Of a stretch of 64,000 nucleotides of DNA, positions 17,650 to 21,481 are shown one piece after another; the stretch's first letter is position 1, and every line of letters begins with the position of its first letter. The position numbers were made by a program, and so were the translations under genes. The stretch covers positions 1-64,000 of the forward strand of contig CAMLDW010000007.1 in assembly GCA_946479035.1 (NCBI GenBank), given 5' to 3'. Under the pieces are notes generated by a model. It had not been told where the DNA came from and made no database searches. It worked only from the letters and a program-made list of their open reading frames with translations. The DNA comes from an uncultured Chthonomonadaceae bacterium (GTDB lineage Bacteria; Armatimonadota; Fimbriimonadia; Fimbriimonadales; Fimbriimonadaceae).

Positions 17650-17728
17650 GGGCGCAGCGCACCGCCGAACGCGGGGCGCGGGCACGGATGGCGACGACGA
17701 CCGAGCGAAAGTGAGGTTATCGCCTAAA

Positions 17729-18517
17729 ATGATGAGAGCACTAAGCACGGCTGGGACAGGAATGATCTCCCAGCAAATGAACCTGGACACGATCGCCAAC
17801 AACCTGGCGAACGTCAACACCACCGCATTCAAGGAGCAGCGCGCGCAGTTCCAGGACCTCGTCTACCAGACCTTCCGCGCCTCGGGCGCGAACGGGGGCG
17901 GCAGCTCGAACGCGCCACAGGCGGCACAGATCGGCCTTGGCTCGCGCTTCGCGAGCAGCGCGACGAACTTTTCCCTCGGCACTTTCCAGCCCAGCGGCGA
18001 CTCGCTGCACATGGCGATCAACGGCGACGGCTTCTTCCAGGTCACGCTTCCTGACGGCTCGATCGCCTACACGCGCGACGGCTCGTTCGCGGCGGACTCG
18101 GAAGGCCAGGTCGTCACAGCCGATGGCTACCTCCTCGAGCCCAACATCATTGTCCCCACCGGCGCTAACGCGGTCAGCATTTCGCAGACGGGCGTGGTCT
18201 CCGCAGTGCTGGCAGGGCAGAACGAGCCGACGACGATCGGCAACATCCAGCTCGTCGTGTTCCCGAACCCCGCTGGACTGACGCGCATGGGCCAAAACCT
18301 GTATCGCGCGGGCGGCGGGAGCGGCTCGCCGTCCACGGTGACCCCGGGAGACCAGGGCGCGGGGACCATCAACCAGTACTTCCTCGAAGGCTCGAACGTG
18401 CAGGTCGTCGAGGAGATGGTGAACATGATCGTCGCGCAGCGCGCCTATGAGATCAACTCGAAAGCGATCCAGACCGCCGACGACATGCTCGGGACCCTCA
18501 ACAACCTCAAGAGGTAA
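17729..18517 (+). CDS. flgG: Flagellar distal rod protein FlgG
   Basis: Distal rod subunit. The 262-residue protein begins MMRALSTAGTGMISQQMNLDTIANNLANVNTTAFKEQRAQFQDLVYQ, a textbook FlgG start, followed by a core domain (INGDGFFQVTLPDG, YTRDGSFAADSEGQVVTADG) and a C-terminal EGSNVQVVEEMVNMIVAQRAYEINSKAIQTAD helix that packs with the N-terminus. I chose the ATG at 17729; a GTG at 17711 is possible but adds six residues. The core domain is closely mirrored by the N-terminal part of the next gene's product. It is followed 6 bases later by flgA. Confidence 0.95.
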   Translation: MMRALSTAGTGMISQQMNLDTIANNLANVNTTAFKEQRAQFQDLVYQTFRASGANGGGSSNAPQAAQIGLGSRFASSATNFSLGTFQPSGDSLHMAINGDGFFQVTLPDGSIAYTRDGSFAADSEGQVVTADGYLLEPNIIVPTGANAVSISQTGVVSAVLAGQNEPTTIGNIQLVVFPNPAGLTRMGQNLYRAGGGSGSPSTVTPGDQGAGTINQYFLEGSNVQVVEEMVNMIVAQRAYEINSKAIQTADDMLGTLNNLKR

Positions 18518-18523
18518 CAAACA

Positions 18524-19669
18524 ATGCTCTCGACCTTCGCAGCTCTCTTGACCCTTGCCGCGCCCAGCGTCCCAGTCTATGTGGACGGCGACGGCTACAT
18601 GCGGTTTTTGCGCGACGGCCGCACGGTCTACTCCAAGCAGACCGTTCTGACGGTCGTGGACGAAAAGCTCGCGAGCGCGGACGGGCCGCTCGTCAACCCG
18701 CGCATACAAGTCCCGGGATCGCCGGACGCGATCACAGTGACGCTGGACGGACGCGTTGTTGCGAAGTACGCCGGAAAGGACACGGAGCTCGGCCGGCTCA
18801 CGATCGCGCTCTTCCCTGACGACGTGCGCCCTGTCGTGGACAAGGGCTTCCTCGTTTCTTCCTATCGGCCGACGCTCGCCGACGCAGGCGTCGACACCGC
18901 GGGAGTCGTCCGCACCGGAAAGCCCGGCGAATCGACCGCGACGGTCACTGTGTACTCGCCCGAGACATTGGCCGGCGGTACCGGAGAGATCGAGATCAAC
19001 TTGCGCGAGAGCGTGCAGATCGAGGGCAAGGCGATCACGCTCGGTGACATAGCCGACGTTACGGCCGACGACGCGACGAAGGCGCGGCTGAACACCCTGG
19101 AAGTAGCTACGGCCCCGCCTTTGGGAGTCACCTACAAGTTCACTCAAGACCAGCTCAAGTTCCGTCTGCTTCGGTATGGCAAAGAAGTCGATCAGTACAG
19201 GTTCTCCGGCTCAGACCAGGTCACAGTGAGCCGAAAGGGCCAGGACGTCACGCAGGCGATGTTCGTGCAAGCGGCGATCCTGGCCGCACAAGAAAAACTC
19301 GGAAAGGGACTGCAGATCAGCACCAATGCGACGGGCCCTGTGTTCGTCGCTCCGATAGGCGTGCTCGACCTAGTGGGCGAGCAGGTGACGCAGGACGGCT
19401 CGCACTTGATCGTGCGCGTCGCAGTGGTCGTGGACGGAGTCCGGATCAACAGCCGCAACATCGCGCTCGAAAAGAGCGACCCGGTCTCTAAAATGCGGGT
19501 CGGCGCGACGGTGAAGGTGATCGTCCGCTCGAACCTCGCGACGGTCGAGACGACCGGAAGGATCAAGTCGATCGACCCTGCGGCGAACAGTGTGGTCGTC
19601 GTGATCGCGACGGGCGCAGAACTGACTGGCACGGCCGTCGCCGACAACACGGTCGAGGTGAAGATATGA
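18524..19669 (+). CDS. flgA: FlgA P-ring chaperone with N-terminal FlgG-like domain
   Basis: Periplasmic chaperone for P-ring (FlgI) assembly. The C-terminal ~230 residues are FlgA/SAF-like: IEINLRESVQIEGKAITLGDIADV, then VTVSRKGQDVTQAM and RINSRNIALEKSDPVSKMRVGATVKV. The 381-residue length exceeds typical FlgA. Residues about 18-130 resemble the FlgG core: YVDGDGYMRFLRDGRTVYS against AINGDGFFQVTLPDGSIAYT, GPLVNPRIQVPGSPDAITVT against GYLLEPNIIVPTGANAVSIS, and LGRLTIALFP against IGNIQLVVFP. The rod helices that flank the FlgG core are missing. A short signal segment (LSTFAALLTLAAPSVP) is present. It overlaps flgH by 4 bases (ATGA). Confidence 0.85.
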   Translation: MLSTFAALLTLAAPSVPVYVDGDGYMRFLRDGRTVYSKQTVLTVVDEKLASADGPLVNPRIQVPGSPDAITVTLDGRVVAKYAGKDTELGRLTIALFPDDVRPVVDKGFLVSSYRPTLADAGVDTAGVVRTGKPGESTATVTVYSPETLAGGTGEIEINLRESVQIEGKAITLGDIADVTADDATKARLNTLEVATAPPLGVTYKFTQDQLKFRLLRYGKEVDQYRFSGSDQVTVSRKGQDVTQAMFVQAAILAAQEKLGKGLQISTNATGPVFVAPIGVLDLVGEQVTQDGSHLIVRVAVVVDGVRINSRNIALEKSDPVSKMRVGATVKVIVRSNLATVETTGRIKSIDPAANSVVVVIATGAELTGTAVADNTVEVKI

Positions 19670-20259
19670 AACGCACGCTTCTTACCTGTGCCGCGGCTCT
19701 GATCGCAGCGGCTTCGTTCGCACAGAGCAAAGGGAACCCTGGGTCGCTGTTCGACCCGAGCGGTCGCAACGCCTTCACCGACAACGTCGCGCGGCGTGTA
19801 GGCGACCTGCTCACGATCGAGGTGGACGAAAAGACCGTCGCGAGCTTCTCTGCGACCACGCAGGCGAACAAGAACGACCAGTCTTCGATTAACGCGCAGT
19901 TCTTCAACGGGCTGCTCGACAGGCTGTTCCGCCCGATCTCGACCGGAGCAGGCAGCAAAGTGTCAGGCGACGGCAAGACCACGCAGAACAGCAACATGAC
20001 CGCGACGATGAGCGTGCTGGTGAAGCAGGTGATGCCGAACGGCAATCTCGTCATCGAGGGCCGGCGCAGCCTGATCACCAACAAGCAGACGCAGACGATC
20101 GTGCTGAGCGGCATCGTGCGCCCCGCGGACATCCGACCCGACAACTCAGTGCCCAGCTCGAGCGTCGCAGAGGCTCAGATCAAGATGGACGGCTCCGGAC
20201 TGATCTCGCAAAGGCAGCGCAAAGGGATCCTGACGCAGATCATTGACTGGCTCTTCTAA
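19666..20259 (+). CDS. flgH: Flagellar L-ring protein FlgH
   Basis: Forms the outer-membrane L ring of the flagellum, supporting a diderm envelope. The 197-residue protein has the FlgH pattern GSLFDPSGRNAFTDNVARRVGDLLTIEVDEKTVASFSATT and NLVIEGRRSLITNKQTQTIVLSGIVRPADI. The signal peptide MKRTLLTCAAALIAAASFAQ lacks a normal lipobox: its only cysteine (Cys8) is preceded by LLT and precedes the hydrophobic core. Most FlgH proteins are lipoproteins, so this one probably uses signal peptidase I or a different anchor. It overlaps flgA by 4 bases and is followed 10 bases later by flgI. Confidence 0.94.
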   Translation: MKRTLLTCAAALIAAASFAQSKGNPGSLFDPSGRNAFTDNVARRVGDLLTIEVDEKTVASFSATTQANKNDQSSINAQFFNGLLDRLFRPISTGAGSKVSGDGKTTQNSNMTATMSVLVKQVMPNGNLVIEGRRSLITNKQTQTIVLSGIVRPADIRPDNSVPSSSVAEAQIKMDGSGLISQRQRKGILTQIIDWLF

Positions 20260-20269
20260 AGGGAACGAA

Positions 20270-21481
20270 ATGAAAAGAACAATCTTTCTGATCGCACTGG
20301 CGGCCTTCGGCCTGATCGGCTACGCGCAAGAGAACACGACGACGCAGCAGAACGCCGAGGACCTGAAGAAGGCCCAGGAGCAAGAGCGCCTGCAGCACGA
20401 GGCCGAGCTAAAGCTGATCCAGGACGCTGAGAAGAACGGCATCGCGGTCCGCATGAAGGACATCGGCCGCTTCCGCGGCGTGCGGACGAACATGCTTCAG
20501 GGCTACGGCATCGTGGTCGGGCTGGCAGGCTCGGGCGACACGCAGCAGACCCCTTTCACGGCGACCCTGATCGAGAACGCGCTCAAGCGCTGGGGCACCA
20601 GCGTGGACGCCACCAAGTTCAAACCGAAGAACGTCGCTGCCGTCTCCGTGACGGCGGAGCTGCCTCCGTTCGCCGCGCCGGGCAACTCGATCGATGTGAC
20701 AGTGAGCTCGATCGGCGACGCCAAGAGCCTCGAAGGAGGGACTCTGCTGATGGCGCCGCTCTACGGGCCGAGCGACTTTGAGACGGTGATCGCGGTCGGA
20801 CAGGGCTCGATCAGTATCGGTGGCTTCAACGCCTCTTCAGGCGGGACCGACGTGCGGAAGAACCACCCGAACGTAGGGCGCATCCCTGGAGGCGCGACAG
20901 TCGAGCACAGCGTCGATACGCAAACGATCTTTGAGGGCAACAAGCTCTACTTCGAGCTCTATGACGCGGACCTGACGACGGCGCAGCGGGTCGCAGACGC
21001 GCTCGGCAAGGACATGCCTGGCTTCACCGTCACGCCGATCGACGGAGGGACGATCCAGATCCAGATCCCCGACCCGAACAGGGCGCTGCTCGCGATGAGC
21101 CAGATCGAACAGCAGACCGTGCACGCGGACGTGCAGGCAGTGGTCGTCGTCAACGAGCGCACCGGGACCGTCGTGATCGGCGGGAACGTGCGGCTTGGCC
21201 CTGCGGTCATCGCGCACGGCTCCCTGCAAGTGCGGATCGACCAGATTCCGATCATCGTGCCGAGCGTGCCGTTCAACCCCAATCCTCCCCTCGTCACGAG
21301 CCAGAACGTCATCGACGCGGGCGAGGACAAGACGCAGATCGGCGTCATACCGCCGAACGCGACCATCAACGACCTCGCGAAGATCCTGCAGACGCTGCAG
21401 GTCACCGCGCGCGACATCATCGCGATCCTGCAGGCCTTGGCCCAGCAGGGCGCGCTGAAGGCGAGGATCAAGATCCAATGA
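20270..21481 (+). CDS. flgI: Flagellar P-ring protein FlgI
   Basis: Forms the periplasmic P ring around the distal rod. The 403-residue product has a signal peptide (KRTIFLIALAAFGLIGYAQ), an extra charged segment (residues 20-55, rich in Glu, Gln and Lys) before the conserved start VRMKDIGRFRGVRTNMLQGYGIVVGLAGSGD, then FAAPGNSIDVTVSSIGDAKSLEGGTLLMAPL and NERTGTVVIGGNVRLGPAVIAHG, all diagnostic. The ATG at 20270 follows AAGGG; an upstream start at 20243 would spoil the signal peptide. Its stop overlaps the flgJ start (ATGA). Confidence 0.96.
   Translation: MKRTIFLIALAAFGLIGYAQENTTTQQNAEDLKKAQEQERLQHEAELKLIQDAEKNGIAVRMKDIGRFRGVRTNMLQGYGIVVGLAGSGDTQQTPFTATLIENALKRWGTSVDATKFKPKNVAAVSVTAELPPFAAPGNSIDVTVSSIGDAKSLEGGTLLMAPLYGPSDFETVIAVGQGSISIGGFNASSGGTDVRKNHPNVGRIPGGATVEHSVDTQTIFEGNKLYFELYDADLTTAQRVADALGKDMPGFTVTPIDGGTIQIQIPDPNRALLAMSQIEQQTVHADVQAVVVVNERTGTVVIGGNVRLGPAVIAHGSLQVRIDQIPIIVPSVPFNPNPPLVTSQNVIDAGEDKTQIGVIPPNATINDLAKILQTLQVTARDIIAILQALAQQGALKARIKIQ

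Follow-up and report, generated by a model that had tools for sequence, protein, structure and literature searches.

A P-ring chaperone FlgA with a FlgG core domain in flagellar operons of Armatimonadota

Why should the chaperone of the flagellar P ring carry a piece of the very rod around which this ring is built? The question is raised by the gene flgA on contig CAMLDW010000007.1 of an uncultured Chthonomonadaceae bacterium (assembly GCA_946479035.1), whose positions 1 to 64,000, the whole stretch of DNA that was analysed, are called the window here. The gene order is flgG-flgA-flgH-flgI, that is, flgA adjoins the genes of the L and P rings. Going by sequence and structural model, its product is a two-module P-ring chaperone made up of a FlgG D1 core, a flexible linker and a FlgA part. 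It is a variant of a known chaperone that is spread across the lineage, and the literature searched does not describe it: no FlgA carrying a FlgG core was found there, and a preliminary description of this DNA, drawn from the sequence alone, had likewise known of none.

The FlgG core domain of FlgA

The preliminary description had lined up residues about 18-130 of this FlgA with the core of the FlgG encoded just upstream, and the alignments bear this out. By BLASTP, residues 15-99 match residues 98-186 of the upstream FlgG (27 of 89 identical, 30%; 57% positives; E 4e-10). A local alignment of residues 14-136 with the same neighbour scores 108, against a mean of 31 (standard deviation 5.1) and a maximum of 55 in 2000 shuffles, so that the similarity lies far beyond chance. 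The FlgG model of NCBIfam, TIGR02488, matches residues 18-97 (E 2.1e-8), and the Pfam model for the D1 domain of FlgE/F/G, PF22692, matches residues 20-80 (E 2.9e-5; 24.6 bits, just below the cut-off of 27) and is found at E <= 0.01 in all 25 members of the aligned family; by PF22692 and the middle part of TIGR02488 the domain belongs to the D1 core. Conserved motifs run across the whole domain in the alignment of 25 FlgA sequences (A1), and the five best matches of its profile to sequences of the Protein Data Bank (PDB) are FlgG chains (E between 6.6e-14 and 4.7e-12; matches confined to profile positions 14-167). The structural kinship that such a core should display is also there, FlgG making up 22 of the top 25 matches of Foldseek. 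As the likeness continues beyond the four motifs first noticed, up to a common PG..G.G motif (Salmonella FlgG 206-212), the domain is longer than originally described, reaching about residue 136 and thus covering about residues 15-136.

The window FlgA is not a FlgG; it contains a piece of one. Against the full-length model TIGR02488 it scores 34 bits, where the cut-off is 252.75. The rod helices PF00460 and PF06429, strong in FlgG, find no match in FlgA up to E 10, just as the flanking helices had been said to be missing, and the L-stretch of FlgG is absent from the domain. The neighbouring FlgF gave no significant match to it (best E 0.44). Residues 15-136 almost certainly represent the D1 core of FlgG, lacking the helices by which FlgG polymerises.

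Taken by itself, the window protein, which stays short of the PF22692 cut-off and does not reach PF13144 (ChapFlgA), might raise the suspicion that the similarity arose by chance, that this is the usual N-terminal domain of FlgA or that the assembly is at fault. The alignment, profile and family results refute these readings in practice and leave them next to no probability. Thermotoga FlgA (3frn) aligns, from its residue 17 on, to residues 155-381 of the window protein and to nothing before 155, and PF22692 was undetectable up to E 1 in all seven canonical FlgAs tested, in agreement with the earlier view that this is no standard N-terminal domain.

Residues 153-381 make up the FlgA part, an identity based on full-length relatives, fold and gene order: they match the FlgA structures 3frn and 3vjp, the last domain has the D3 fold, and the full-length relatives P0025, P0026, P0027 and P0029 exceed the PF13144 cut-off. 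Compared with the FlgAs of Salmonella (3vjp/3tee) and Thermotoga (3frn), the window FlgA has the FlgG core in front. Thermotoga FlgA possesses an extra domain of its own, D0 (residues 17-84; PMC4895218, cited, like the other papers below, from excerpts), which is seemingly another domain and not a FlgG core, since 3frn aligns to window residues 155-381 from residue 17 onwards.

Distribution and descent

The same architecture recurs in other flagellar operons of Armatimonadota, where the preliminary description had expected it to be sought. A scan of genome contigs from all phyla, with patterns derived from this FlgA family, gave 23 loci, titled as Armatimonadota groups in 21 cases, as a bacterium in one and as an archaeal metagenome-assembled genome (MAG) in one. 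flgG lies directly upstream of flgA in all 23 (in L001 it is cut at its far end), and flgH and flgI lie downstream in 22, the remaining locus being cut by the contig end. A search of 5.8 billion proteins, with the 8000 candidates sharing most words scored, returned 27 proteins including the window protein and near-copies; two of the three protein searches scored about 8000 candidates only, and the six of their proteins for which an organism was given are all from Armatimonadota. In a profile search of genomes, 192 of 291 were matched by a profile that also detects FlgG, with a maximum of six candidates scored per genome, and at least 54 genomes (rows counted by hand) have a single match spanning both the domain and the FlgA core. 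As far as searched, the FlgG-core FlgA appears confined to Armatimonadota, the scan of all phyla having relied on patterns derived from the family itself.

Altogether 93 loci were compared, with 68 fused FlgAs (those bearing the domain) and 25 canonical ones, or 57 and 25 distinct proteins, the window's own excluded. These numbers are not a frequency, as the set is biased: 23 loci came from the contig scan, 30 were the best-scoring of the profile search and 40 were hand-picked, and L024-L093 are from genomes of the same phylum as L002. The domain has been retained across a long divergence: among aligned relatives, identity to the window FlgA goes down to 29%, and identity to L054 is 22-30%.

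On a tree of the domains, those of FlgA grouped on one side of a branch with FlgG apart (support only 35), and their branches were mostly longer than those of FlgG. Of the original proposal that the domain was copied from FlgG, the kinship stands, but the upstream flgG was not freshly duplicated to give it. A combined tree of FlgG, FlgH and FlgA core (75 rows, with 14 near-duplicates and five rows with fewer than two genes left out) has starred branches that force three changes between fused and canonical, and a tree of FlgI (71 rows) needs two. On the combined tree L073 and the pair L074/L075 are nested within fused groups and are therefore read as losses; L054 (genome G177) adjoins the canonical side. 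We read this history as a single gain, close to the base of the lineage, with at least two later losses, and G177 may alternatively have gained its domain by transfer. L007, with the domain, and L074 and L075, without it, form one fully supported group on this tree, and such related operons offer a natural comparison. The FlgG-core domain on FlgA is real, old and lineage-wide.

The locus titled as archaeal, L012 (JADZEW010000010.1, Methanoregulaceae archaeon MAG), bears this bacterial flagellar operon, and on the tree its FlgI does not separate from the FlgI of contig L011 (Fimbriimonadaceae); it is probably a mislabelled or mixed MAG.

Surface, export and possible task of the domain

Acidic patches on the Salmonella rod are formed by the FlgG residues D109, D154 and E203, and FlgI turns its lysines K63 and K95 towards the rod; efficient P-ring formation requires the two lysines as well as the acidic surface (PMC8298488). 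Site 109 is acidic in 32/48 FlgA domains versus 37/47 FlgGs of the same loci, site 154 in 37/48 versus 14/47, and site 203 in none of the 48 versus 13/47. The mean net charge is -0.2 in the FlgA domain (range -7 to 6) and -5.9 in FlgG (-2 versus -6 in the window), the negative charge having been lost through a gain of basic residues (mean 11.9 versus 5.5), and two arginines, R27 (98%) and R91 (88%), are near-invariant and specific to FlgA. Set beside FlgG (6jf2, 7cbm, 8wki), the domain thus differs not only in lacking the rod helices and L-stretch: many FlgG-invariant residues are replaced, and it is near-neutral on average, not acidic. The fold was thus kept and the surface remade, which is more in keeping with a module that took on a new binding task than with a faithful copy of the rod.

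The window FlgI keeps lysines aligned with Salmonella K63 and K95; in fused loci (57 rows, duplicates included) position 63 is K or R in 53 and position 95 is K in 43. Between its signal peptide and the P-ring core, this FlgI has an extra segment. The core motif starts at residue 61 in the window, at a median of 62 in 43 fused loci and of 30 in 21 canonical loci; these medians leave out 12 fused and one canonical FlgIs without a match to the start pattern, and some FlgI ORFs (open reading frames; L057, L060, L021) start too far upstream. L054, L078, L079 and L081 are fused with a short FlgI extension, and L074 and L075 canonical with a long one, and because of these exceptions the link between extension and FlgG core may reflect shared descent only.

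Judged from charge and hydrophobicity alone, the leaders of fused FlgAs are unusual: K and R are absent from the first 10 residues in 52 of 57 distinct proteins, but in only 6 of 25 canonical FlgAs, of which L059, L060, L085 and L087 have seemingly misplaced starts. Ordinary charged leaders are found in the FlgAs without the domain by loss (L073, L074, L075), and over L001-L073, fused and canonical together, an early K or R is present in 56 of 61 distinct FlgH and 38 of 39 distinct FlgI proteins. This gives some room to the thought that FlgA, like the rod subunits, leaves through the flagellar type III channel and not by Sec. However, the domain has no D0, in which the early export signals sit, another one being C-terminal (PMC10936197), and five fused FlgAs (L014, L035, L040, L069, L080) have charged, Sec-like leaders. 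Such a route is highly improbable, and the window FlgA would be exported by Sec. The FlgA of L071 has hardly any hydrophobic leader.

In Salmonella, FlgI is bound by D3 of FlgA, which has to shift between a closed and an open form, and the P ring assembles around the distal rod; what brings FlgI to the basal body, and what makes FlgA release it, are stated to be unknown (PMC4895218). The preliminary description had suggested that, with a rod-like core, a P-ring chaperone could recognise, cap or mimic the rod and so template the ring. On this model, the FlgA part of the window protein would bind FlgI by its last domain, and the FlgG core would be a rod-recognition module docking onto the growing distal rod, itself FlgG, so that FlgI would be delivered at the rod and nowhere else. 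That the core serves a contact of the chaperone with rod or ring in some form seems fairly probable; to docking on the rod, which would direct FlgI there and is the reading we prefer, we would give a probability of a little under 40%. The conserved basic residues gained on the module would fit a partner of the acidic rod surface. Several observations weigh on the other side. The domain has been lost at least twice (L073; L074 and L075) from operons that keep FlgA, and hence is dispensable. The residues invariant in FlgG (D117, G118, N180, G183, G188, N190, S198, G199 and G210 in Salmonella numbering) are mostly gone, so that the domain should not pack as a rod subunit, a loss to be expected where D0 and rod packing are absent. 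The FlgA part, too, has diverged, given that PF13144 is matched at E <= 0.01 by just 4 of 25 aligned relatives and not up to E 10 by the window copy.

Alternatively, the core might fold back onto the FlgI held by the same FlgA, occupying its rod-facing surface and blocking premature ring closure until the real rod displaces it. The two FlgI lysines, needed together with the acidic rod surface in Salmonella and retained in the window and most fused loci, would suit such mimicry, as would the frequently acidic sites 109 and 154. Yet the E203 site is never acidic in the domain, the hairpin of D31 bears R27, R30 and R33, and the L-stretch, likewise implicated (PMC8298488), is missing; the lost FlgG-invariant residues and near-neutral mean charge speak against a simple imitation of the acidic rod surface, and we regard this explanation as unlikely. 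It is also doubtful that the core is a module for stability or spacing with no rod-specific partner, which would aid folding, protect the chaperone or tune its open-closed motion. The two losses with FlgA retained and the branches mostly longer than those of FlgG would agree with it, and so would Thermotoga D0, an extra N-terminal domain of a different kind (PMC4895218); however, core motifs and FlgA-specific near-invariant residues are conserved over a deep lineage, and a FlgG core in precisely this chaperone would be a coincidence. Quite unlikely, finally, is that the core acts as a template, holding FlgI in its on-rod pose until the built-in piece is exchanged for the real rod, in a mechanism coupled to a co-evolved N-terminal extension of FlgI.

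Returning to docking, a rod fragment built into a chaperone suggests how FlgA might find the rod, and a natural FlgA with such a piece makes the sorting and release of FlgI, open even in Salmonella (PMC4895218), testable. Among known helpers, FlhE (PMC11247099) is comparable by role description only: it is likewise a periplasmic flagellar helper with a proposed action during rod assembly, but its proposed role has to do with the rod cap at the outer membrane.

Coordinates of the locus

Table 1. Features of the flgG-flgI region (positions in the window; pLDDT, predicted local distance difference test)
Feature	Position	Strand	Basis or remark
flgG, distal rod protein; its family supplied the extra domain	17711..18517	+	TIGR02488 E 6.4e-97; PF22692, PF00460, PF06429
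flgG D1 core	about 18002-18403	+	within flgG
flgA with extra N-terminal domain, 381 amino acids	18524..19669	+	ORF with ATG at 18524, stop 19667-19669
Hydrophobic leader, FlgA residues 1-14, no K or R	18524..18565	+	pLDDT <50 at residues 1-10; putative signal peptide
FlgG-core (D1) domain, FlgA residues 15-136	18566..18931	+	sequence, profile and fold comparison
Asp31, site of Salmonella FlgG Asp109 (rod surface facing FlgI); hairpin turn with R27, R30, R33	18614..18616	+	alignment
Asp75, site of Salmonella FlgG Asp154 (rod surface facing FlgI)	18746..18748	+	alignment
Flexible linker, FlgA residues 137-152	18932..18979	+	pLDDT <50 for 137-152; variable in alignment A1
FlgA part, residues 153-381	18980..19666	+	matches FlgA structures 3frn, 3vjp
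flgH, L-ring protein	19666..20259	+	PF02107 E 2.4e-50
flgI, P-ring protein	20270..21481	+	PF02119 E 1.6e-108
FlgI extra segment (about residues 20-58, ~40 residues) following the signal peptide and preceding the P-ring core	20327..20443	+	

flgG and flgA share one reading frame, and between them lie one TAA and two codons (18515-18526).
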